33,363 nucleotides of DNA from Cohaesibacteraceae bacterium (GTDB lineage: Bacteria; Pseudomonadota; Alphaproteobacteria; Rhizobiales; MH13). Positions 20,606 to 33,363 of the stretch are shown here, one piece after another. Position 1 is the first letter of the stretch. Each line of letters begins with the position of its first letter. The notes beneath the pieces are model-generated. The model was not told the DNA's origin. It did not search any database and worked only from the letters and a program-made list of their open reading frames with translations. The translations under genes and the position numbers were made by a program. The DNA is taken from contig JANQJE010000153.1 in NCBI GenBank assembly GCA_028281795.1, positions 1 to 33,363 of the forward strand, read 5' to 3'.

Positions 20606-23600
20606 TCAGTGGAAATCGCGCGATTTGGGGATGATCCGCACATCGCGCGGATGACGATGGCGGCTTGGAACCTTCGCATCTTTCACCAGACCGCCTTTCA
20701 CGCTGTCCGCACGTGACAGCACAGGCCGTATGACTTCGTCAGCGCGGGCAAGGCTTTGCGGTGCCGTATGGAGCGTGGAGAGCGTGGCCAGATCATCGGT
20801 GCGGTCGTAAAGCGAGGTTGCCATCAAGTGGATGACGCCTTCCTTGCTCTTTTGCACATGACCCATCACCAGCATCAGCTTGGAGCCCATCACCTCGCGG
20901 CGGAACCGTTCGAACCGGCGTGCCCAGACGACCACATTCACGATGCCGGTTTCATCTTCCAGCGTGATGAAGATGGCGTTGCCCTTGCCCGGCCGCTGAC
21001 GGATAAGCACGACACCCGCTGTTTTCACCCAATAGCCGTCGCGGGTGTCAGCCACTTCCTGACAGGTCAGAACCTTCTGCGCCCTCAAGGTCGGCCGCAA
21101 CAGCGCCATGGGGTGAGCTTTCAGAGAAAGCCGCACGGTCTGGTAGTCGGCGACCACATGTTCAGCCAACGCCATGGCGGGCAGGTTGGCATCGGGTTCG
21201 GTGCTGAGTTCGTGCTGGCTGGCCGCCTCGAACAAAGGCAGCGGGATGTCGTCGGGAAGGCGGCGCACCGCCCATAGTGCTTCCCGGCGATCCATGCCGG
21301 TGGAGCGGAACGCATCGGCCTCGGACAGAAGCTTCAGCGCCCGATGCGGCAGGCGGGCGCAGCGCCAGAGATCCTCGACGTCCTCATAGGGCCGGGCGCG
21401 TGCGTCCACCAACTGTTCGGCCCACTCTTCATGGAAACCATCGACCTGACGGAAGCCAAGTCTGAGTGCCAGACTTCCATCTTCGGAGCGCTCCAGCGTG
21501 TTGTCCCAGGCGCTATGATTGATGTCGACGGCACGGGCTTCAACGCCGTTCTCCTGCGCATCGCGCACGATCTGGGCAGGAGCATAAAATCCCATGGGCT
21601 GGGCGTTCAAAAGCCCGCAGGCGAAGACGGCCGGGTGGTGGTGTTTGATCCAGGAGGAGATGTAGACCAGCTTGGCGAAGGAGGCGGCGTGGCTTTCAGG
21701 AAAACCATACTCGCCAAAGCCCTTGATCTGGTTGAAACAGCGCTCGGCAAAGTCGCGTTCATAGCCGCGTCGCACCATGCCTTCGACCATCATCTTCTCG
21801 AATTTATGGATCGTGCCCATGTGGCGGAAAGTAGCCATGGCGCGGCGTAGACCGTTGGCTTGTTCGGGGGTGAACTCGGCGGCGACCATGGCGATTTTCA
21901 TCGCCTGTTCCTGGAACAGCGGGACGCCCAGCGTGCGGCCGAGAACCCCTCGTAGTTCATTCTGATCGTGCGGCTGTGCGGGCGAAGGAAAGACAACCTC
22001 TTCTTCGCCGTTGCGCCGGCGCAGATAGGGGTGGACCATGTCCCCCTGGATCGGGCCGGGGCGCACGATGGCGACCTGAATGACGAGATCGTAGAATTCT
22101 TTGGGTTTCAGGCGCGGCAGCATGTTGATCTGTGCCCGGCTTTCCACCTGAAACACGCCGATGGATTCGCCGCGTTGAAGCATGGCGTAGACGTCTTCAT
22201 CGCCGTCTTCGATATCGGGCATGTCGAGCTTCAAGTCTTCATGATCGTCCAGAAGCGTCAGGCATTTGCGGATGCAGGTAAGCATGCCGAGCGCCAGCAC
22301 ATCGACTTTCATCAGGCCGAGCGCGTCGATATCGTCCTTGTCCCACTCGATGAAGGTACGGTCGTCCATCGCCGCATTGCCGATCGGAACCAGTTCGTCG
22401 AGCCGGTCGCGCGTGAGCACGAACCCGCCGACATGCTGGGAAAGGTGGCGTGGGAAACCCATGATCTGATGTGCCAGATCGAGCACGCGGTGGATGACGG
22501 GATTGTCCGGATCGAGCCCGGCTTCTCGGATGTGTTTGGCTTCCACCTCGCGGCCAAAGGACCCCCACACCGTGCCGGCCATGCGGGCCGTCACATCTTC
22601 GGTGAGGCCGAGAACCTTGCCGACCTCACGCAGGGCGCTGCGCGGGCGGTAGCTGATCACAGTGGCGGCGATACCGGCTCGCTCGCGGCCATAGCGTTCG
22701 TAGATGTGCTGGATGATTTCTTCGCGCCGTTCATGCTCGAAATCGACATCGATATCGGGCGGCTCCTTGCGTTCCGATGAAATGAAGCGCGCGAACAGGA
22801 GGTCATGCTCGGCCGGATCGACGGCGGTGATGCCGAGGACGTAGCAGACGGCGGAGTTGGCTGCCGAACCGCGGCCCTGGCACAAAATGCCCTTGTCGTG
22901 GGCAACCCGTACGATCTCGTGAATGGTGAGGAAATAGGGCGCGTAGTCGAGCTGTTCGATGAGAGCGAGTTCGTCCTTTAGCAGGCGCTTCACCTTCTCC
23001 GGGACGCCGGTGTGATAGTAGCGGTAGGGCGCATGGCGCCAGACCAGTTCCTCCAGCCAGGCCTGCGCCGTCTTGCCAGGAGGGATCGGTTCGTCGGGAT
23101 AGGTGTAGGCAAGCTGGTCGAGGGTGAAGTCTATGCGCGCGAGAAAGCTGTCCGTTTCAGTCAGAGCTTGCGGCGCATCACGGAACAGCCGGGCCATCTC
23201 CTTTGGTGATTTCAGATGGCGTTCGGCGTTGGCTTCCAGCCGTTTGCCGGCGTTCTCCAGCGTGCAGCCCTCGCGGATGCAGGTCACTACATCCTGCAAG
23301 GAGCGCTGACCGGGCTGGTGGTAGAGCACATCGTTGGTGGCCAGAAGCGGCACGTTGGTGCGTTCGCTGATGGCGATAAGACCGGCAAGACGGCGGCGAT
23401 CATCACCGGCATAACGCATGCTGGCGCCCAGCCAGACGGCCCCAGATGCTGTTTTCTGCAATTTCTGCAGAACAGCGTCGAGCATGGTGGTGTTCAGGGT
23501 ACTTGCCGGAGGTGGCATGACGATCAGAAGCAGCCCTCGCACATGGCGTAAAAGGTCATCGAGCGTGAGGATGCAGTCACCCTTTTCAGCGTGCTTTTTG

Positions 23601-23941
23601 CCATGCGTCAGTAGGCGGCAGAGCCGCCCCCAGCCCTCCCTGTTTTCCGGGTAGGCTAGAATATCCGGCGTGCCGTCGGCAAAGACGAGCCGTGCCCCCA
23701 CCACAAGCTGAAAGGCCTGTGCCATGGCGCGCGTTTCGTCGTCTTCATCTTCGCGAAGATCCTTCAGCGCGCGGTAAGCCCGCGCGACGCCTGAGACGCT
23801 GTTGTGGTCTGCGATGCCGATGCCCGTATGACCGAGTGCAAGAGCCTGGACGACCAGATCGCCAGGGTGTGAGGCACCGCGCAGGAACGAGAAATTGGTC
23901 GTCACCGCCAGATCGGCATAGTTGGGCGCGGACGTGTTCAT
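20606..23941 (-). CDS. dnaE2: Error-prone DNA polymerase III alpha-type subunit DnaE2
   Basis: This 1111-residue C-family polymerase acts with ImuA and ImuB in SOS mutagenesis. The N-terminal PHP domain begins with LAVTTNFSFLRGASHPGDLV and GIGIADHNSVSGV. The palm has PPDIDVDFEHERREE with catalytic Asp396 and Asp398, plus GRGSAANSAVCYVLG at 357-370. A helix-hairpin-helix section is followed by an OB fold (GIVNVVVWARRFERFRREV) and the C-terminal stretch PSRHRHPRDVRIIPKSRDFH found in DnaE2. Length and these motifs separate it from replicative DnaE1. The start ATG shares its A with the ImuB stop (TGATG), so it is coupled to the SOS-controlled imuA-imuB genes. Confidence 0.95.
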   Translation of the reverse strand: MNTSAPNYADLAVTTNFSFLRGASHPGDLVVQALALGHTGIGIADHNSVSGVARAYRALKDLREDEDDETRAMAQAFQLVVGARLVFADGTPDILAYPENREGWGRLCRLLTHGKKHAEKGDCILTLDDLLRHVRGLLLIVMPPPASTLNTTMLDAVLQKLQKTASGAVWLGASMRYAGDDRRRLAGLIAISERTNVPLLATNDVLYHQPGQRSLQDVVTCIREGCTLENAGKRLEANAERHLKSPKEMARLFRDAPQALTETDSFLARIDFTLDQLAYTYPDEPIPPGKTAQAWLEELVWRHAPYRYYHTGVPEKVKRLLKDELALIEQLDYAPYFLTIHEIVRVAHDKGILCQGRGSAANSAVCYVLGITAVDPAEHDLLFARFISSERKEPPDIDVDFEHERREEIIQHIYERYGRERAGIAATVISYRPRSALREVGKVLGLTEDVTARMAGTVWGSFGREVEAKHIREAGLDPDNPVIHRVLDLAHQIMGFPRHLSQHVGGFVLTRDRLDELVPIGNAAMDDRTFIEWDKDDIDALGLMKVDVLALGMLTCIRKCLTLLDDHEDLKLDMPDIEDGDEDVYAMLQRGESIGVFQVESRAQINMLPRLKPKEFYDLVIQVAIVRPGPIQGDMVHPYLRRRNGEEEVVFPSPAQPHDQNELRGVLGRTLGVPLFQEQAMKIAMVAAEFTPEQANGLRRAMATFRHMGTIHKFEKMMVEGMVRRGYERDFAERCFNQIKGFGEYGFPESHAASFAKLVYISSWIKHHHPAVFACGLLNAQPMGFYAPAQIVRDAQENGVEARAVDINHSAWDNTLERSEDGSLALRLGFRQVDGFHEEWAEQLVDARARPYEDVEDLWRCARLPHRALKLLSEADAFRSTGMDRREALWAVRRLPDDIPLPLFEAASQHELSTEPDANLPAMALAEHVVADYQTVRLSLKAHPMALLRPTLRAQKVLTCQEVADTRDGYWVKTAGVVLIRQRPGKGNAIFITLEDETGIVNVVVWARRFERFRREVMGSKLMLVMGHVQKSKEGVIHLMATSLYDRTDDLATLSTLHTAPQSLARADEVIRPVLSRADSVKGGLVKDAKVPSRHRHPRDVRIIPKSRDFH

Positions 23942-25617
23942 CAGGCAAACAGCCCATGTACGAACCAGCCGGGATGCTCCGTTTCCCGGCTGTACAGTCC
24001 TTCACGGAACACCCAAAAGCGGCGGCCTTTTGTATCTTCCACCCTGTAATAGTCGCGGGTGAGGCCTGCATCCTCGGATCGCCACCATTCCGGTGCGATT
24101 CGTTGCGGACCCTCGGCGCGTGCCACCTCGTGCAGAACGCGCCGCCAGCGGAATTTCAGCGGTGGACCATCCGGGATCTCCGCCAAAGCCTCGATACGCT
24201 GTGGGTGTTCGAACATGTGGACGGGCAGGTTTGGCGGTTCACCGGGCTCCGGTGCAGCCCATTCAAGGTCCGGCATGGCGATGGACTGGGTATGGGTAAG
24301 CCGGTGATCGGGATAATCCTTGGCGGGCACCTCATAGGCAGCCCGTTCGGGGATATGGGTCTGCGCGCCGACAAAGCGCAGCACTGCCTGTTTGCCATAG
24401 CGTGTGCCGAGTTGGTCGATGAGCGCAGCCACGTCTTCATCGGCCATCTCATGGCCATCGAGACTGGTCTGGGCTTGCTGAAAGGGGGCGCATGCACCAA
24501 CGGACAAACGTAAAAGATCATAACCAAAGCCGGGGTCGAGCGGATCGGCGAGCGTGTCGATCCGTTCCCTGAAAAGACGCATGATCGGCTTTCCTGCCCG
24601 GGTCGGCAGCGATGTTTCCACGCGCAGGCGGCGTACGGCACCATCGGTACGAAACAGGCTTGCCTCGAAAGATTTGCCCCCTTCGCCGCGTTTCTCCAGC
24701 ATCCGTGCTGCCTGTTCGATCAGATGCTCGATGGTGGCGAGCACATCCTCCTGCCGGCCAATGGGTTCGCCGAAGCGGCGTTCAACCGTGCAGGGCGGCA
24801 AGGGCCGGCGTGGGACGATGGAGATATCTTCCTCACCCAGAACACGGGCAAGCTTGGTGATCAGGCCGGTGCCGAACCGGGCGGCCAGTGGCGTACGGGG
24901 GCGGGCGGCCAGATCGCCGATGGTGGCAAGGCCTGCATGGTTCAACGCAAGGTCGATGTCCCGGTCGATGCCGAGGGCAGCTATCGGCAGAGTAGCAACT
25001 GTCTCTGCTTCCTGCCCGGTTGGTATGATGGCTTGGGTCTTACCGATGGTAAATCGGGCGATGGCGCGAGCCGTGTCGGGTGTGGCGGCAATGGCTGTTC
25101 TGACATCCATACCGGCTTTGATGCAGCGCGCCTGCAGATCGTCTTGCAGGGCCCGTTCCCCACCAAACAGATGAGCGCAGCCGGTGATGTCGAGCAGCAC
25201 GCCACCCGGCTCATCCAGAGCAACCAGTGGTGTGTAGCGGTCGCAAAAATCGGCCATCAGTTCCAACCAGGCTCTGTCCGCCGTTCGATCCCTGTCCATG
25301 GCAACAAGACCCGGCACACGGGCGCGGGCATCAGCCAGTGTCAGACCGGGGGTAAGGCCAAGCGCCATGGCCTCACGGCTGACGGCCATGAGCCTGAGGG
25401 CGCTACGCTCCTTCTCGATGAAAACGATCGGCGCTTCAGCCTGTCCGTTTGAAGGGGCTGGCGGTTGGGCTGCCTGACGCTGCAACCGGTTGGCGGGCAG
25501 GAACGGAAACCACACGGCCAGATAGCGGCTTGCCCGGTGCCGGTTTGCCGAGCCTGGGTCTGACGCTCTGGACTCTGTTCCATTCGGGTTTGGAAAGTTG
25601 GAACTGGCCAAGGTCAT
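23941..25617 (-). CDS. imuB: ImuB, catalytically inactive Y-family polymerase homologue
   Basis: This protein of about 558 residues is the scaffold of the DnaE2 mutasome. It begins the Y-family-like fold at RYLAVWFPFLPANRL, continues with LGLTPGLTLADARARVPGL, and has a palm-like LDITGCAHLFGGERAL and thumb/little-finger region ending near FGYDLLRLSVGACAPFQQAQTSLDG. The acidic catalytic residues of active Y-family enzymes are not apparent, as expected for ImuB. ATG 25617 is the best visible start, giving about 33 residues before the conserved fold; an alternative TTG lies two codons on. This start lies 182 nt inside the imuA gene. The open frame continues to 25773 but only deeper into imuA. The C-terminus REGLYSRETEHPGWFVHGLFA is typical of ImuB. 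Confidence 0.9.
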   Translation of the reverse strand: MTLASSNFPNPNGTESRASDPGSANRHRASRYLAVWFPFLPANRLQRQAAQPPAPSNGQAEAPIVFIEKERSALRLMAVSREAMALGLTPGLTLADARARVPGLVAMDRDRTADRAWLELMADFCDRYTPLVALDEPGGVLLDITGCAHLFGGERALQDDLQARCIKAGMDVRTAIAATPDTARAIARFTIGKTQAIIPTGQEAETVATLPIAALGIDRDIDLALNHAGLATIGDLAARPRTPLAARFGTGLITKLARVLGEEDISIVPRRPLPPCTVERRFGEPIGRQEDVLATIEHLIEQAARMLEKRGEGGKSFEASLFRTDGAVRRLRVETSLPTRAGKPIMRLFRERIDTLADPLDPGFGYDLLRLSVGACAPFQQAQTSLDGHEMADEDVAALIDQLGTRYGKQAVLRFVGAQTHIPERAAYEVPAKDYPDHRLTHTQSIAMPDLEWAAPEPGEPPNLPVHMFEHPQRIEALAEIPDGPPLKFRWRRVLHEVARAEGPQRIAPEWWRSEDAGLTRDYYRVEDTKGRRFWVFREGLYSRETEHPGWFVHGLFA

Positions 25618-26308
25618 GATGCCACTCCACACGCCAGCTTTGTCCATGGGTGCCGGCTTTGTTGCGTAAAAGGGTGATGTCGAAGGTTGGGTGCCCTGGC
25701 GCATTGGCTTCCAAGGCGCGGGATGGTGCGCTGGCAACCTGCCATCGCGTGAAAGCTGCACTTGGCTGTTCATCGGTGGCGGCGCGCAGCAAAAAAGGTG
25801 TTACGCCGGACTTTTCCGCTGCCAGTGCCAGACGGCGCGTGGCTGTCAGATCAAGTTCCTTTGGCGCTCCCCAGGCTTCAATAATGACGCCTGCCAAAGA
25901 GGTGCAGCGTACGGCCTCCAATCCGGCAGACAGAAAATGGATCGGTTGACGCACACGCACGAAGATCAGGTTGGCTGGATCAAACCCGAGACCCGCAAGG
26001 CCATGCGGGTAAAGCCGCCCCGTTTCGCTCTCGCTCATGGTCTGACGTATCCAGACCACAGGCCGCTTTTTGCGCCGGTCCCGGCCAGCGATCCGTTGCA
26101 TGAAGCTTGCCGCAAAGCCGCTGGAAGATGCCATATCGGCTGTTTCTGCGGCATAGGTTTCGTGCAACATGGCCAGCCCTAGTCCGCCGCCCAGATGTGC
26201 ATCGATCTCGCTCACGCCAAAACCGACCTGACCATGTTTCAGGCCATAGGTTTGGGACGGCGCCAGCGTTTCAAGCTGGCGGCGTAGCTGATGGATCGCT
26301 TGGCTCAT
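25436..26308 (-). CDS. imuA: ImuA, RecA-related mutasome protein
   Basis: This protein of about 290 residues belongs to the ImuA branch (SulA/RecA-like fold) that works with ImuB and DnaE2. Visible family stretches are FGVSEIDAHLGGGLGLAMLHE near residues 31-51, WIRQTMSESETGRLYPHGLAGLGFDP near 86-112 (read in parts), and WHHDLGQFQLSKPEWNR in the C-terminal half. A Pro-rich tail ending in SPTASPFKRTG overlaps the imuB reading frame. The start is ATG 26308 or the preceding in-frame GTG 26311. A LexA box begins eight bases upstream of the GTG, so the leader must be very short. The three genes imuA-imuB-dnaE2 form one operon. Confidence 0.9.
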   Translation of the reverse strand: MSQAIHQLRRQLETLAPSQTYGLKHGQVGFGVSEIDAHLGGGLGLAMLHETYAAETADMASSSGFAASFMQRIAGRDRRKKRPVVWIRQTMSESETGRLYPHGLAGLGFDPANLIFVRVRQPIHFLSAGLEAVRCTSLAGVIIEAWGAPKELDLTATRRLALAAEKSGVTPFLLRAATDEQPSAAFTRWQVASAPSRALEANAPGHPTFDITLLRNKAGTHGQSWRVEWHHDLGQFQLSKPEWNRVQSVRPRLGKPAPGKPLSGRVVSVPARQPVAASGSPTASPFKRTG

Positions 26309-26318
26309 CACGTAATAT

Positions 26319-26497: not shown

Positions 26498-26998
26498 TCA
26501 GTCTGGTTCAGTGCGTCGGGTTTGTAGCTGATCGGCAAAATGCTCGATACGCTCTACAAAGTCGGAACGTACGACGTCGTCCTGATGCACCGTCAGTACG
26601 TTGTTGATCTCTGCATCGAGCAGATCTTGCACCATCTCCACGGCTTTTTCTGGTGCTGAATGCCCGCCGAACGTCAGCGCAAGTGCGACAGGCTGCGCAA
26701 ACGGACGATTCTGGTCGATAAAGGCACGCAAGGGCAGTGCGGGATAACTTGTCCAGATGGGCGCCGCCAGGACAATGCAATCGTATTGGCTCAAATCGAC
26801 GGGTTTGACATCGATCTTTGGCAGTCTTCCCTGCACGCTATCGTAACCAGCGAGCAAATAGCGAAACCAGCCGAGGCGATAGCGTGGGCAGGCAATCTCC
26901 AGGACATCAGCCTTAAGGGCGCCCGCCAAAGCATAGGCTACCTTGGTAGTCGTCCCTGTGCGCGAGTAGTAGATGATCAGTGTTTTCAAAGCGGGCAT
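26498..26998 (-). CDS. Flavodoxin-like protein
   Basis: This protein of about 166 residues has a flavodoxin fold. The FMN phosphate-binding loop is visible as YYSRTGTTTKVA near residues 10-21, after the first strand LKTLIIYY. The second flavin loop region is LAAPIWTSYPALPLRAFI near 76-93. An insertion around YRLGWFRYLLAGYDSVQG suggests a HemG- or menaquinone-dependent-like flavodoxin branch rather than a short electron carrier, but this is uncertain. ATG 26998 was chosen; a TTG two codons upstream overlaps the preceding stop. It follows the nitroreductase gene with almost no gap and is probably co-transcribed with it, giving a flavin-redox pair downstream of an FNR/FixK-like site. Confidence 0.82.
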   Translation of the reverse strand: MPALKTLIIYYSRTGTTTKVAYALAGALKADVLEIACPRYRLGWFRYLLAGYDSVQGRLPKIDVKPVDLSQYDCIVLAAPIWTSYPALPLRAFIDQNRPFAQPVALALTFGGHSAPEKAVEMVQDLLDAEINNVLTVHQDDVVRSDFVERIEHFADQLQTRRTEPD

Positions 26999-27000
26999 GC

Positions 27001-28095
27001 TCAAACGCCAGCAACCATGACATCTTCGACCGGTCGCCGTATCGACATGGGCAGAGCCGGTGCATGGCCAAACCGGATCACCAGATCCGGGCGGGCGTCC
27101 GGCTGACCCAGCCAGTTTGCGAATTCCAAACGGATGCTCTCGACCTCGACCGGTTGATTGACATGAGCTGTGCGGATGCCGAGCGCAGTGGCCTGCAAGG
27201 CAAAGCGCTCAAAACTCCGGCCGACCCTGATCCAGTGTTCCGGATCGGCACGATCGCCGATAAACACCGCAATCCCTGCCGATGAGCGGATATGGTCACG
27301 GTATTTGTCATTCTCGGCTTCCTCTGTGAAGAATCGGTCGAACATGAAACCTCCGAGTGGATTGGGCAGGACCGGATTGCCGGAACAGGCTGAAAACAGT
27401 CCATCCCGTGTGGTCATTGCTTCGTTCGGGCTGAAACGCAGCCACTCACGCAATTCCGCAACAAAGGCCGGATCGCGAATCTGTTGACTGTTGCCGGCTA
27501 CCACAAAGTCCAGAATGGCCTCGCGCTGTTCTGCATCTGTGAAGAACAGAACCTCGACACCGTCTTCCTGCGCTGCAATTTCCAAAGCTCGCATATCGTC
27601 CAATGAGAGTGCTTGTCCGTCATAGACGGAGCGGGTCGATTGGCGCAGTGGAATGGCATCATAAAGCTGGGAGCTTTGTGTGCCGCCACGGGCGAGTGCG
27701 ACATGGATTTCGGTCTCAGCGCCGGGCATGATTTCGACATCGGCAGGTCTGCCGTGCGCCGCAGCCGTCAGAACCAGATTTTCTGCGGCACAGCCAAGGC
27801 TGACAAAGATATGATGATGGTCAGGGTCGACCACCTCCGTCCCCCTGGTGAGATCGGGCAAGATGTCGATCTGCTGGCTATCCACGCGGAACATCCAGGG
27901 TTGGGTGTTGTGACCATTTGCGGCGAGGCAGGCATAGCGAACGAGTTCGGCAAGTTCGGGCGCATTGGCCAGTGCCTCGCGCTGGCGAGCAACTTCCTCG
28001 TTGTAGGCGTTAAGCCGTGGCCATCGTGCATAGCCCAACCCACCCAGTGCGACGGCAGATGCGCCTAGGATCAAGAGAGTGCGTCGAGACAACAT
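27001..28095 (-). CDS. Nitroreductase-family (Acg-like) flavoprotein with twin-arginine-type N-terminus
   Basis: This 364-residue protein opens with MLSRRTLLILGASAVALGG, a twin-arginine (SRRTLL) plus hydrophobic stretch, so it may be exported by Tat or anchored facing the periplasm. The body is nitroreductase-like: ACLAANGHNTQPWMF near residues 55-69 is the hallmark of Acg-type FMN proteins, with SSAGIAVFIGDRADPEHWIRVGRSFERFALQATALGIRTAHVNQP near the C-terminus (read in parts). Acg proteins of mycobacteria belong to a hypoxia regulon and may sequester or reduce via flavin; a substrate is not known. The ATG at 28095 follows AGGAAAGGAAAAGCC. An FNR/FixK-like box is centred about 59 bases upstream, and the flavodoxin-like gene follows. 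Confidence 0.85.
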   Translation of the reverse strand: MLSRRTLLILGASAVALGGLGYARWPRLNAYNEEVARQREALANAPELAELVRYACLAANGHNTQPWMFRVDSQQIDILPDLTRGTEVVDPDHHHIFVSLGCAAENLVLTAAAHGRPADVEIMPGAETEIHVALARGGTQSSQLYDAIPLRQSTRSVYDGQALSLDDMRALEIAAQEDGVEVLFFTDAEQREAILDFVVAGNSQQIRDPAFVAELREWLRFSPNEAMTTRDGLFSACSGNPVLPNPLGGFMFDRFFTEEAENDKYRDHIRSSAGIAVFIGDRADPEHWIRVGRSFERFALQATALGIRTAHVNQPVEVESIRLEFANWLGQPDARPDLVIRFGHAPALPMSIRRPVEDVMVAGV

Positions 28096-28146
28096 GGCTT
28101 TTCCTTTCCTGTCTCAACTGGCTTAGGCGCTCTGACCGCGCGTTTG

Positions 28147-28160
28147 TTGATGACGGTCAA
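28147..28160 (-). promoter_or_regulatory. Putative FNR/FixK-type box upstream of the Acg-like nitroreductase gene
   Basis: The plus strand reads TTGAT-GACG-GTCAA, one mismatch from the palindromic FNR/FixK consensus TTGAT-N4-ATCAA. It is centred about 59 bases before the nitroreductase ATG. A class II activator site at -41.5 would put the transcript start near 28112, leaving a short leader with a ribosome site. It overlaps the last codon of the phosphoribosyltransferase gene by four bases. Confidence 0.55.
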
Positions 28161-28864
28161 CGCGAGGGTTGATTGCCGATCACCGGCCGTGCGTGGCTTT
28201 GCCGGACCGACTCCGCCGTGCTGCGGGCGAGCAGGCCGATAACCTCTGTGTCTTCGACCTGTGTGAAGTCGCGGTAGTGTTCTCCAACGGCATGGAAAGG
28301 CGACGGCGCCGAAAGGTACACAAGTTCGTCAACAAGCTCTTCGAACGTGCTGACGCTTTGCGCGGGCAGCACGGGGACAGCCAGAACGAGGCGCGCCGGA
28401 CGTGCTTTGCGCAGCATAGTGAGGGCTGCCTTGATGCTGCTGCCGGTGGCGATGCCGTCATCCACCAGAATGACGGTGCGTCCGCCGGGGTCAACCGCTG
28501 GACGATCACCGAGATACTCGCGACGGCGTTGCGCGATCTCCTCCAGCTTTCGCTTCATTTCTGCTTGGACGTAATCTTCGCTGGCGGCAATCAGGTGCGC
28601 CACGCGCTCGTTCAGGATCAGTTCCGGTCTTGGACCGTCGGCCACCGCGCCGATGGCCAGTTCTTTCTGATGCGGGGCTCCGATCTTTTTGACGAACATC
28701 GGTTCAAGCTGTGCATCGAGTGCAACGGCGATTTCATAGGCAACCGGTATCCCGCCGCGCGGCAAGCCAAGCACCAGGGGGTCAGCGTCTTTGAGGTGCG
28801 CGAGCTTTCGCGCCAGACGACGACCGGCGTCTGTACGATCTTCGGGAGCATCAAGGTTTGTCAT
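28157..28864 (-). CDS. Phosphoribosyltransferase-family protein
   Basis: This protein of about 235 residues has the type I PRTase fold. The PRPP-binding loop is VILVDDGIATGSSIKAAL near residues 131-148, with the two adjacent Asp residues and the GS turn intact. The N-terminal part holds VLGLPRGGIPVAYEIA, a family stretch near 32-48, followed by KKIGAPHQKELAIGAV. Such stand-alone PRTases occur in stress or low-oxygen gene groups, sometimes fused to a hydrolase; no fusion is present here and the base substrate is unknown. Start ATG 28864 follows AAGGACGTG, and an adjacent GTG at 28867 is an alternative. It lies between the host-attachment gene and the nitroreductase gene on the same strand. Confidence 0.85.
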   Translation of the reverse strand: MTNLDAPEDRTDAGRRLARKLAHLKDADPLVLGLPRGGIPVAYEIAVALDAQLEPMFVKKIGAPHQKELAIGAVADGPRPELILNERVAHLIAASEDYVQAEMKRKLEEIAQRRREYLGDRPAVDPGGRTVILVDDGIATGSSIKAALTMLRKARPARLVLAVPVLPAQSVSTFEELVDELVYLSAPSPFHAVGEHYRDFTQVEDTEVIGLLARSTAESVRQSHARPVIGNQPSR

Positions 28865-28908
28865 CACGTCCTTATCTCAAGGGCCTTGTGCCGTTGACCC
28901 CGTCTAGC

Positions 28909-29346
28909 TCAGGCGGCTTCAAGCAGTTTGATGATTGCCTCAATGGGCCGGTGCACATAGTTGCCCGCAATTTCCTTCAGGACGGCCCGTTGCACCCGGG
29001 TGCTCAGCGCCTCACGCAAAAGACCCAGCGTTTTGGCATCGGCGATCAGCACGACTTGCCGGTCGGCGTTGGTCTCAAGATCGTCATCGATCCACTTGGC
29101 CAAAGACCTGGCGAAGGCGGCCTTGTCCATCGCTTTCCAGTCGGTCTGTTCAACAGTTGTCATCCGCCCGCCGGAGACGGGGTAGCGTCCCGGTCTCTCG
29201 GTCCCCTGTTCACCGGCGCTTTGCAGCTGTTGTTCGTCGGTTGAACGGACCTGTAAATCCCACTGAACGGCTTTGCCGTGGTTTTCCAGAATCAGGTGCC
29301 GTTGACCGTCGGCCAGGATGACGAGAGCAGCATGCGGTAGCTTCAC
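28909..29346 (-). CDS. Host-attachment-type protein
   Basis: This 145-residue protein matches the 'host attachment' family known from agrobacterial attachment studies. The pattern is an N-terminal strand KLPHAALVILADGQRHLILEN, a central variable section, DKAAFARSLAKWIDDDLE, RQVVLIADAKTLGLLREAL, and a C-terminal LKEIAGNYVHRPIEAIIKLL helix. Despite the name the domain resembles release-factor-eRF1-like folds, and its role in most bacteria is unclear. It starts at GTG 29346 with GGGAGAT upstream. It has no signal peptide. An FNR/FixK-like box lies about 80 bases upstream of the start. The next gene on the strand is the phosphoribosyltransferase, 44 bases on. Confidence 0.82.
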   Translation of the reverse strand: MKLPHAALVILADGQRHLILENHGKAVQWDLQVRSTDEQQLQSAGEQGTERPGRYPVSGGRMTTVEQTDWKAMDKAAFARSLAKWIDDDLETNADRQVVLIADAKTLGLLREALSTRVQRAVLKEIAGNYVHRPIEAIIKLLEAA

Positions 29347-29418
29347 GGCTGTATCTCCCTTCGCTGTATATGGTCGGCCGGTGTGGCATTGAGGTCATCA
29401 CATTGCGGCTGCACGATG

Positions 29419-29432
29419 TTGATATTGCTCAA
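29419..29432 (-). promoter_or_regulatory. Putative FNR/FixK-type box upstream of the host-attachment-type gene
   Basis: The plus strand reads TTGAT-ATTG-CTCAA, one mismatch from TTGAT-N4-ATCAA. It lies in the 95-base gap between the acyl carrier protein stop (29442) and the host-attachment start (29346), with its centre about 80 bases upstream of the latter. A -41.5 position would give a leader of about 38 bases. A second one-mismatch site lies at 28147-28160. Confidence 0.55.
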
Positions 29433-29441
29433 CGAAGGCTA

Positions 29442-29684
29442 TCAGGCCGCTTTGCTCAGATAGGCAGTAGCCAAGGCGGGCGTTGCGATCTGGGTGTACT
29501 CGCTCTCTGGTATGTCGATGCCGAAACGTGTGTGCAGCGCAGTGACCAGATTGAGAACGTCCATCGAGTCCAGTTCCAGATCGTCCTGGATGTGATCATC
29601 ATCCGATACCGTGTCGGGATCGATATCGGGCGCCACTTTGACCAGCTCTTCAAGGAAAGCGGCACGGATTTGCTGTGGGGTCAT
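29442..29684 (-). CDS. Acyl carrier protein, coupled to the 2-oxoacid dehydrogenase E2 gene
   Basis: This 80-residue carrier protein is acidic and helical. The phosphopantetheine site is Ser40 in DDLELDSMDVLNLV, and the third helix region is GIDIPESEYTQIATPALATAYLSKAA. It is a dedicated paralogue rather than the housekeeping ACP, judging by its position. The ATG at 29684 overlaps the E2 stop (ATGA), with GGAGGCTCT upstream, so the two proteins are made together. Upstream genes encode a fused E1 and an AMP-dependent acyl-CoA synthetase. An ACP beside an acyl-transferring E2 suggests that acyl groups from the dehydrogenase, or lipoate precursors such as octanoate, pass via ACP; this is an inference with no direct proof. 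Confidence 0.88.
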   Translation of the reverse strand: MTPQQIRAAFLEELVKVAPDIDPDTVSDDDHIQDDLELDSMDVLNLVTALHTRFGIDIPESEYTQIATPALATAYLSKAA

Positions 29685-30889
29685 AGAGCCTCCGGGGTCT
29701 GCATCAGGTTTTCGAATTCGGTGAGGAACCGGGCGGCCTGACGCCCATCGCCGACCCGATGGTCGAGCGACAAGGTGACGGTAACGGTCTGGCGGGGAAC
29801 GACCGCGTCGCCAACAACCCATGGCCGGCGCTTTGGCGCGCCGATGCCGACCAATGCCACCTGCGGCGGGAAGATCACACCCGTCATGGCCTCCGCGCCG
29901 GTTTCGCCGAGCGCCGAGATGGTGATGGTTCCCATCGACATTTCCGAGCCGCGCAACCGGCCGGCCCGTGCGCGCGTGACCAGGTCGCGCATCGCGGCCA
30001 TGGTCTCGTCCAGTGTCAATGTCTCTGTGTCCATGATGGCTGGTGCCACCAGCCCGCCGCCACGCAACGCAACAGCCATGCCGGCATTGACCGTTTTGGA
30101 CGGCTGGAATCCGTCGTCATGATATTGTCCATTCACCACCGGAACTTTTGCAGCCGCAAACGCACCGGCACGCACAAAAAGCGCGCCGATCAGCAGGCGA
30201 TTGGCTGGCTCCCGATCCCGGTTGGCCTTTTCAAGCCATTCTGTTGCCGGTTTCAGGTCGATCGTCTGGCTGACATACAGATGCGGAATATCCCGATTGG
30301 CCCGTGACATGGCCGCTGCAATCGCTTTGCGCATTTCGGCCATGGGCGAGGAAGGCTTCGCGGCAGCGACTTCGGACGTTGTGCCAACGATGCGTTCCAC
30401 GTCGCCAAGCTGAATAACACCGCCCGGCCCCGATCCCTTCACGGTGGTCAGGTCAATGCCGTGTTCAGCCGCCCTGTGCCGTGCTGCCGGGGATGCGGCT
30501 AAGCCGCCAGACGGAAGAGCAGGCGTGGCCGGTCTGGGTGGTGCGGCCGGTGGAACTGGTGGTGGCGCAGCAGCTTCCTCGGACGGCGGTGCAGGTGCCG
30601 CCTTCGGCTCAACCACAACCGGTGCTGGTTTCGGCGCGGCTGGTGCCTTTTCGCCTTCGTCCAGAATCATGGCCAGAGGTGCGCCGACAGGCAGTTTTTG
30701 ACCGAGCTCGGCTTCCAGATGATGCACTGTGCCGGTCTGGAAAATCTCGATCTCGATGGCGCCTTTTTGTGTCTCGACGACTGCGATGACGTCGCCACGC
30801 TTGACCGTGTCGCCAGGCTCGATCAGCCATTCGACCAGCGTGCCGGCCTCCATGTCGGCTCCCAGCGAGGGCATTTCAAAAACGCCCAT
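29681..30889 (-). CDS. 2-Oxoacid dehydrogenase complex E2 (dihydrolipoamide acyltransferase)
   Basis: This 402-residue E2 has a single N-terminal lipoyl domain with Lys42 in VVETQKGAIEIE as the lipoylation site, and a long Ala/Pro-rich linker near 85-128. A peripheral-subunit-binding domain follows (ASPAARHRAAEHGIDLTTVKG-like, about 131-166), then the catalytic domain with His377 and Asp381-Gly382 in SLDHRVGDG. Pyruvate, acetoin or branched-chain 2-oxoacids are all possible substrates. It starts one base after the E1 stop and overlaps the ACP start. No E3 (dihydrolipoamide dehydrogenase) gene is in the window, so the complex probably shares a housekeeping E3. Confidence 0.92.
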   Translation of the reverse strand: MGVFEMPSLGADMEAGTLVEWLIEPGDTVKRGDVIAVVETQKGAIEIEIFQTGTVHHLEAELGQKLPVGAPLAMILDEGEKAPAAPKPAPVVVEPKAAPAPPSEEAAAPPPVPPAAPPRPATPALPSGGLAASPAARHRAAEHGIDLTTVKGSGPGGVIQLGDVERIVGTTSEVAAAKPSSPMAEMRKAIAAAMSRANRDIPHLYVSQTIDLKPATEWLEKANRDREPANRLLIGALFVRAGAFAAAKVPVVNGQYHDDGFQPSKTVNAGMAVALRGGGLVAPAIMDTETLTLDETMAAMRDLVTRARAGRLRGSEMSMGTITISALGETGAEAMTGVIFPPQVALVGIGAPKRRPWVVGDAVVPRQTVTVTLSLDHRVGDGRQAARFLTEFENLMQTPEAL

Positions 30890-30890
30890 G

Positions 30891-32885
30891 TCAGCGCCCC
30901 ATCATGGCTTTGACCCTGGCAACGATCTGCGGTGTTTGCGGGATCGCGGCGTCTTCCAGATGCTTCGGATAGGGGATCGGCACCTCGGCTGAGCACAGGC
31001 GGTCGACCGGCGCATCGAGATGCCAGAAACCCTGTTCCATGATCCGGGCGGAAATTTCGGCGGCCAGCGATCCGCTGCGCCAGCCTTCATCAATGATCAG
31101 GGCGTGGCGCGTGCGTGCCAGTGATCCGATGATCGTTTCGTCATCCAGTGGGCGCAACACGCGCAGGTCGATCACCTCGGCGTCAATGCCTTCCTTGGCG
31201 AGTTCTTCTGCGGCGTCCATCACCTTGTACAGTGATCCGCCATAGGTGATCAGCGATATGTCTTTGCCTGACCGGCGGATGGCAGCCTTGCAGATGTCCA
31301 CCGGACCGGCATTGGTGTCGATCATTCCGGTGCGGTTGTAGAGCATCACGTTCTCGAAGATGAGGACCGGATCGGGGTCTTCCAGCGCGGTCCAAAGCAT
31401 GCCGCGTGCGTCCTCGACCGTAGCTGGCGTGAGCACCTTAAGCCCCGGAATATGGGCGTACCAGCCTTCCAAGGAGTGGGAATGCTGGGCCGCCAACTGT
31501 TTGCCTGCGCCGGTCGCCATCCGAATGACCAGCGGTACACCGAACGCACCGCCCGACATATGCCGCATGGTGGCAGCCGTGTTGAGAATCTGGTCGAGTG
31601 CCAGCAGGCTGAAGTTCACCGTCATCAATTCAACGATCGGCCGCATACCAGCGGCGGCGGCCCCGATCCCGGCGCCAGTAAAGCCGGACTCCGAAAGCGG
31701 CGTGTCGCGGATACGGTCCTCGCCGAGCTCCTCCATCAGCCCTTTGGTCACCGCATAGCAACCGCCATAAGCGCCGACATCCTCACCCATCAGAAAGACG
31801 CGGTCATCGCGCTGCATGGCGTCGCGGATCGCCTGTTTGACCGCCTCCCTGTAGGTGATTTCGACGGTCTCGCCGGACGGTTCTGCGGGCGCGGGCTGTT
31901 GCTGTTGGTCGCCCAGAACGTGCTTTTCGAGATCTTCGACAGGCTCCCAGGTGCCGGCTTCGGAGAAGGCAACGGCCTCGGCAATCTCAGCGTCTGCATC
32001 GGCTTCGATTTTGGCGATATCGTCCCGGTGGATCAGTCCATTTTCCAGCAGCCAGCCCTGGAAGCGCACGATCGGTCCTTTGCCCCGCCACTCCTCGACT
32101 TCGTCCTTAGGCCGGTAGAGTTGCGCGTCGAACATGGAGTGGGCCCGGAAGCGGTAGGTCCGGCATTCCAGAAACACCGGCTCGCCGGTTTCGCGGATGT
32201 GCCCGACCGCCCGGCGCGCGGCCGCTTCGACCGCGACCACGTCCATCCCGTCGACGATCTCAGACTGAATGCCATAGGATGCAGCCTTCCGGTGAATGTC
32301 GGTTTCGGCTTCCGAACGGGCAAGCGCCGTGCCCATCGCGTAGCCATTGTTCTCGCAGACGAACAGGACCGGCAGGGACCATAGCCGGGCGAGGTTCAGC
32401 GTTTCATGAAACTCACCTTCGGCCACGGCGCCTTCGCCAAAGAAGCAGGCCGTGACGCCGTCATTGCCCTGCATTCTGTCGGCCAGCGCCAGTCCGCCGG
32501 CGAGGGGCAGACCGCCGCCGACGATGGCGTTGCCGCCATAGAAGTTGGTGTCCCTGTCGAACAGGTGCATGGAGCCGCCGCGCCCGCCTGAACAGCCTTC
32601 GGCCTTGCCGTACATCTCGGCCATCACCGTTGTCATCGGCACGCCACGCACCAGCGCATGGCCATGCTCGCGGTAGGTGGCGACGATGCGGTCCTCTTCA
32701 TTCAGAACCGGGATGATACCGGAGGCAATAGCTTCTTCTCCGTCATAGAGGTGCAGGAAGCCGCGTATTTTCTGCTGTGTGTAAAGCTCGGCGCATTTGT
32801 CTTCGAACCGGCGAATGCGGATCATGCTGGAGAGGAGTTCCAGAACATGGGTTTCGTCGAGGCGCGGTTTGTCGATCACACTCAT
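30891..32885 (-). CDS. Fused 2-oxoacid dehydrogenase E1 alpha-beta subunit
   Basis: This 664-residue thiamine-diphosphate enzyme joins the usually separate E1 alpha and beta chains. Residues 1 to about 325 are alpha-like, with the cofactor motif starting at [12 protein letters not shown] (150-161) and ending at CENN (177-180); GEG replaces the more common GDG. A Gln/Pro/Ala-rich linker near 333-346 leads into the beta part, with [47 protein letters not shown] and a C-terminal transketolase-like domain with [15 protein letters not shown]. Alpha-beta fusions are known but less common than separate chains. The substrate could be pyruvate, acetoin or another 2-oxoacid. The ATG overlaps the acyl-CoA synthetase stop (ATGA). 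With E2 and ACP downstream it forms one coupled operon. Confidence 0.92.
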
Positions 32886-33363
32886 GTTTCGTCGGTCTCC
32901 AGTGTTGAGATGTCGCCTTCAGGCAGGCCCAGCTCACGCGCTTTCAGCAGTCGGCGCATGATCTTGCCCGACCGAGTTTTGGGCAGGGTTTTCCGGAAGA
33001 CGATTTCGCGCGGAGCCACGGCCGGACCCAGCTTCTTGCGGGCATGGCCGCGGATGGCACGTTCCAGTTCTTCGGAGTGCTCAAAACCGGGGTTGAGCAC
33101 CACATAGGCTTTGACGACCTCGCCGGCCGTTTCGTCCGGAACGCCGATTACCCCGGCTTCTGCAATCGCGTCATGTTCAATGAGCGCGCTTTCGACCTCG
33201 AATGGGCCGATCAGATGGCCGGACGACTTGATCAGATCGTCGGCGCGGCCAACGAACCAGAAATAGCCGTCGCTATCGCGCATCGCCAGGTCGCCGGACA
33301 GGTACCAGCCGTCGACGAAACACTTGTCGTAACGCGCCTGCTCATGGAGGTAGGTCCGCATCA
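32882..33363 (-). CDS. AMP-dependent acyl-CoA synthetase, C-terminal part (5' end outside window)
   Basis: About 160 C-terminal residues of an ANL-superfamily ligase are visible, and the gene runs off the window's right edge. Conserved blocks are [31 protein letters not shown] (read in parts), which carries the A8 hinge of the adenylation family, then [26 protein letters not shown] and the C-terminal catalytic lysine motif [16 protein letters not shown]. These match acetyl- or propionyl-CoA synthetase-like enzymes that make acyl-CoA from a free acid, ATP and CoA. The TGA overlaps the fused E1 start, so it is translationally coupled to the dehydrogenase. An ATG near 33361 is internal and not the true start. 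Confidence 0.88.

Follow-up and report, generated by a model that had tools for sequence, protein, structure and literature searches.

A string of co-oriented genes in a Cohaesibacteraceae bacterium (GenBank assembly GCA_028281795.1, contig JANQJE010000153.1) carries two short boxes that are very probably binding sites for an oxygen-responsive activator of the FixK/FNR type, making the string part of a predicted low-oxygen module. The window (the whole stretch of DNA analyzed, 33,363 nucleotides) ends in this minus-strand string, which runs from the C terminus of an acyl-CoA synthetase (acs) through E1, E2, ACP, host-attachment, and phosphoribosyltransferase (PRT) genes to an Acg-type nitroreductase and a flavodoxin (Table 1). 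A low-oxygen FNR/FixK regulon had been predicted here from the DNA letters, and comparative genomics (the boxes, their conservation, and FixL-, FixJ-, and FixK-like genes) supports this reading. The regulon would be of a known kind, and the Acg-type nitroreductase seems to be a conserved member that earlier lists lack. With somewhat less assurance, we consider it likely that twin-arginine Acg nitroreductases, together with the PRT gene and the acs/PDH/ACP operon, are conserved direct FixK/FNR targets across the Alphaproteobacteria, so that a family controlled by DosR elsewhere would have been rewired.

Table 1. Coordinates of the boxes, the -10-like hexamer, and the genes of the string
Feature	Coordinates	Strand	Details
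Flavodoxin	26498..27004	-	PF12724; overlaps end of Acg gene
Acg-type nitroreductase, 364 aa	27001..28095	-	twin-arginine N terminus; NF047509 E 2e-90; PF00881; PDB 2ymv
-10-like hexamer TAAGCC	28120..28125	-	+29 to +34 from box 1 center, one base nearer than the family element
Box 1, FixK/FNR-type site TTGACCGTCATCAA	28147..28160	-	perfect TTGAYN4RTCAA, read toward Acg-type gene
PRT-domain protein, 236 aa	28157..28867	-	PF00156
Host_attach/baeRF family 12 protein, 145 aa	28909..29346	-	PF18856 E 2.9e-27; PF10116 E 1.1e-26
Box 2, TTGAGCAATATCAA	29419..29432	-	one mismatch to TTGAYN4RTCAA, read toward host-attachment gene
ACP-like protein, 80 aa	29442..29684	-	PF00550; end of acs-E1-E2-ACP string
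2-Oxoacid dehydrogenase E2	29681..30889	-	PF00198, PF00364, PF02817
Fused E1 alpha-beta, pyruvate-dehydrogenase type	30891..32885	-	PF00676, PF02779, PF02780; TIGR03182 over cut-off
Acyl-CoA synthetase (acs), C-terminal part	32882..33361	-	PF13193

The window's Acg-type protein scores 303.5 bits against NF047509 ('Acg family FMN-binding oxidoreductase'; cut-off 199), and the best solved match to the profile of the Acg-type family is PDB 2ymv (Acg). In an alignment of the Acg-type proteins of the clade (A1), a near-invariant RR close to the N terminus is followed by a hydrophobic stretch, and one member (L043) has a lipobox-like LPGC. The twin-arginine N terminus suggests export of this FMN enzyme. 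The nitroreductase and flavodoxin genes are likewise adjacent at two other loci (L204 and L231). Adjoining the flavodoxin gene are three genes (20606-26311, minus strand) that by inspection resemble an imuA-imuB-dnaE2 mutagenesis cassette, the most downstream of them encoding DNA polymerase III alpha domains; no FNR-type box was found near this cassette.

The two boxes and the Acg-type promoters

Both boxes lie at the predicted positions, where their sequences were verified. Each had been described as having one mismatch, which is true of box 2, but box 1 has none against the alphaproteobacterial consensus TTGAYN4RTCAA. The center of box 1 is 58.5 bp 5' of the Acg-type ATG and that of box 2 is 79.5 bp 5' of the host-attachment (baeRF12) start, both distances being to start codons and not to transcription starts. 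Box 1 shares bases with the stop codon of the PRT gene before it and would thus be an internal promoter site of the gene string. Box 2, which fits the published FixK2 consensus TTG[AC]N6[TG]CAA, lies roughly 10 bp beyond the ACP stop codon; we rejected by inspection its being part of a terminator after ACP, as the arms are short and A+T rich. The two boxes are the only matches to TTGATN5TCAA in the window (0.25 expected), and at least two such matches occurred in 4 of 100 shuffled windows. Allowing up to one mismatch to TTGAYN4RTCAA adds a single site, within the E1 coding sequence. Taken singly, either box could be a chance match.

We therefore turn to the relatives, where the original prediction had suggested looking for conservation and where boxes upstream of Acg-type genes far exceed the chance expectation. 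Among 40 Acg-type orthologs from the order to which the window belongs, 17 match the consensus between -54 and -82 with no more than one mismatch (0.16 expected) and 8 match it perfectly in that interval (0.03 expected), the expectations coming from the frequency of such sites elsewhere in these sequences. In a second set, of 79 named Acg-type orthologs, 30 carry a site with one mismatch or none (0.6 expected) and 21 a perfect one, located from -50 to -76 (0.06 expected). There is slight overlap between the sets (L083 and L238 have identical upstream sequence), and some of the Acg sequences are related, so these counts are not fully independent. Control open reading frames of the same loci had a box at an Acg-like distance in 5 of 573 cases with at most one mismatch and in 1 of 573 with a perfect match. 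The published FixK2 consensus is present upstream of 46 of 119 Acg orthologs (0.57 expected). Carriers of perfect boxes among the 79 come from Rhodobacterales, Rhizobiales, Kordiimonas, Kiloniellaceae, and Caulobacterales genomes; orthologs without a box are numerous in this set, especially in sphingomonads, beta- and gammaproteobacteria, and Bacteroidota. Because the position of the box is conserved at Acg promoters, we regard box 1 as real and not a product of chance.

Next, we aligned 46 Acg promoters on the center of the box. The sole signal besides the box itself was TAnnAT at +30 to +35, with T at +30, A at +31 (31/46; binomial P = 4e-12), A at +34, and T at +35. A -10 element here, roughly 32 bp from the box center, would place the start some 42 bp beyond that center. 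This is the class II arrangement, and the conserved -10-like sequence fits a predicted class II promoter for the Acg family. Class II activator distances had been proposed for both boxes; the conserved element supports the proposal for the Acg family, whereas box 2 has only a weak match (TGACCT) at the corresponding position. A class I reading of box 2, through CATATA at about +54 to +59 from its center, was another candidate, but the resulting spacing of about -65 is off the usual class I phase.

Host-attachment, PRT, and acs genes in relatives

A genome of the same genus (G003) has the acs, PRT, and host-attachment genes in different places, and each is preceded by a box. The host-attachment gene is preceded by a perfect box (TTGACGATTGTCAA) at -69.5, the PRT gene by another perfect box (TTGATGCGGGTCAA), and the acs-E1-E2-ACP operon by TTGACAAAAATCAG; the Acg ortholog of this genome has only a looser sequence (TTGACCAACCGCAA), also at -69.5. 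That boxes were kept in G003 although the genes have moved apart makes chance hard to credit. After acs-E1-E2-ACP in G003 (L183 2979-5687) come two further genes: one for a PPK2 polyphosphate kinase, in convergent orientation, and one resembling a phosphate permease gene, with two one-mismatch boxes upstream.

The acs gene of the window is cut by the contig end, and it had been suggested that its start be sought beyond the window. We found the N-terminal 418 residues on contig C268 (L283), where a one-mismatch box (TTGACAAAAGTCAG) lies upstream at -63.5; the two parts of acs abut within about 3 residues of the G003 sequence. More widely, 23 acs loci were examined: 13 carry, within 400 bp, a box with one mismatch or none, and in 4 of these it is perfect. 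Of 30 PRT orthologs, 9 show a perfect box in the nearest 800 bp, where the frequency in same-order Acg-locus DNA predicts about 0.3. In a Paracoccaceae metagenome-assembled genome (L263 1-4176), acs-E1 is divergent from a nearby Acg-type gene with a one-mismatch box on each, so the pairing of the acs operon with Acg is seen again beyond the order of the window. Few host-attachment orthologs outside the genus had boxes, and the class-wide comparison gave little.

These comparisons bear on the strongest alternative, which is that box 1 is functional and box 2 has decayed, the host-attachment and PRT genes being read mainly from the acs promoter. The mismatch in box 2, its lack of a good -10 element, and its place just past the ACP stop codon in a string of co-oriented genes are all compatible with this. 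We nevertheless consider it unlikely, given the perfect box at the host-attachment ortholog of the same genus and the published data for Bradyrhizobium diazoefficiens. The host-attachment gene bll4645 of that species is FixK2 dependent and has a box (TTGATCGGGATCAA) at -69; its expression changes -10.6-fold in the delta-fixK2 strain (PMC9104804, Table 2; PMC6515984). TTGAG half-sites are moreover tolerated in published FixK2 boxes, as in TTGAGCAAAATCAA at hspC2 (PMC9104804).

Candidate regulators and other sites in the genome

Absence of FNR/FixK genes from the genome had been named as an observation that would count against the prediction; contig C285 carries a FixK-like gene with FixJ-like and FixL-like genes nearby. 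Among solved structures the FixK-like protein matches FixK2 best (4i2o; E = 2e-27), and the two share the ETVSR recognition helix; the top NCBIfam models of the FixK-like protein are FixK and FnrL, both below their strict cut-offs. The FixL-like protein matches NF041777 below the cut-off and also matches solved FixL heme domains. Between the FixK-like and FixJ-like genes lies a gene for a small receiver-only protein (L005 2769-3143, minus strand) that may act like FixT, inhibiting FixL by feedback. C89 carries another FixK-like gene, and five HTH_Crp_2 proteins in the genome are over the cut-off; inspection of these five recognized no FNR cysteine cluster.

Pattern searches of the 3.33-Mb genome, which is 79% complete, found 12 distinct perfect TTGAYN4RTCAA sites, box 1 among them, and 2 sites for the reversed pattern. 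Several of the 12 are intragenic and resemble chance matches. Others precede a Usp-led nitrate gene block, DUF2267, a BchE-like gene, and phaA/phaR; the first of these lies on C84, between an FtrB-like gene and the nitrate block. The BchE-like gene (L188 3493-5278, contig C131) encodes a B12-binding radical SAM protein and has its perfect box (TTGATGCGTGTCAA) 81.5 bp upstream.

FnrN and FixK recognize closely similar motifs (PMC4999443), and the sites therefore do not identify their binder. The sites could thus be real and bound mainly by another Crp/Fnr paralog, of the NO-sensing Dnr/NnrR type or FtrB-like, with NO or nitrate as the signal. The five HTH_Crp_2 proteins and the perfect box next to the FtrB-like gene are in line with such a binder, but we judge it improbable, since a FixL-FixJ-FixK-like cluster is present, its FixK-like helix matches that of FixK2, and the boxes recur across many orders in which FNR/FixK factors are widespread. 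That the boxes are chance matches, as the modest window statistic and the intragenic genome sites might suggest, is very improbable, being already contradicted for box 1 by positional conservation at Acg promoters and opposed by the independent boxes at the relocated G003 orthologs.

The preferred reading is thus control by a FixK/FNR-type activator. In the mechanism that we infer from these sequences, falling oxygen would be the signal, and FixL-FixJ signaling would probably raise FixK. As the presumed binder, FixK would occupy box 1 next to RNA polymerase, on its upstream side, with the box center near -41.5 relative to the inferred start, and would activate the genes for the Acg-type nitroreductase and the flavodoxin. 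Box 2 would likewise switch on the host-attachment/baeRF12 and PRT genes, and the third box, upstream of acs on the neighboring contig, would turn on acs-E1-E2-ACP. With three boxes along the block, acs to flavodoxin would form one low-oxygen module with three successive promoters.

Relation to known low-oxygen regulons

Among the closest known systems is the FixLJ-FixK2 regulon of B. diazoefficiens, which has FixL, FixJ, and FixK-type regulators and the same box. Usp and PHB genes are FixK2 dependent there, as is a nitroreductase gene, blr4652, with the box TTGATCGACATCAA (PMC9104804 and PMC6515984); the covered portions of these papers gave no PRT gene or acs-PDH-ACP operon in the regulon. 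We considered and rejected blr4652 as direct evidence that the Acg gene is a target. A locus of a same-order genome with the same box (L195 16645-17250), matched to blr4652 by box sequence and gene order and not by accession, encodes a non-Acg nitroreductase of 201 aa, in contrast to the longer Acg type of the window.

The alphaproteobacterial FNR/FnrL/FixK core regulon is alike in its consensus site and target promoter class (PMC2908626 and PMC4999443). Usp is a core target, and protoporphyrin monomethyl-ester cyclase is included; nitroreductase, host-attachment, and phosphoribosyltransferase genes are absent from the text of both papers. They are also unmentioned in the main text of the Dinoroseobacter shibae and Rhodobacter capsulatus FnrL papers. 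A search of the main texts of open-access papers found none that names Acg-type nitroreductases, this PRT, or the acs-PDH-ACP operon among the targets of FNR/FixK. The lxa locus of Burkholderia cenocepacia is similarly a clustered low-oxygen island of stress and metabolism genes, with several Usp genes (PMC9104464), although it belongs to another class of bacteria and is likened here by description and not by gene content.

A parallel with the hypoxia regulons of mycobacteria had also been drawn. It holds at the family level, by the NF047509 match, but the proteins here have a conserved twin-arginine N terminus. The mycobacterial DosR dormancy regulon, which also has PRT-domain and Usp members, differs in its regulator family and DNA site. 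Its Acg-family nitroreductases (acg, Rv3131, and Rv2030c) are under hypoxia control (PMC3110807). If our reading is true, a hypoxia family controlled by DosR in mycobacteria is placed under an unrelated oxygen-responsive regulator, which gives a candidate oxygen signal for a flavoenzyme family that is widespread in the Alphaproteobacteria and probably exported. This suggests that Acg-type nitroreductases were recruited separately by DosR in mycobacteria and by FixK/FNR in Proteobacteria, and their function may therefore be general to oxygen limitation and not special to pathogen dormancy.
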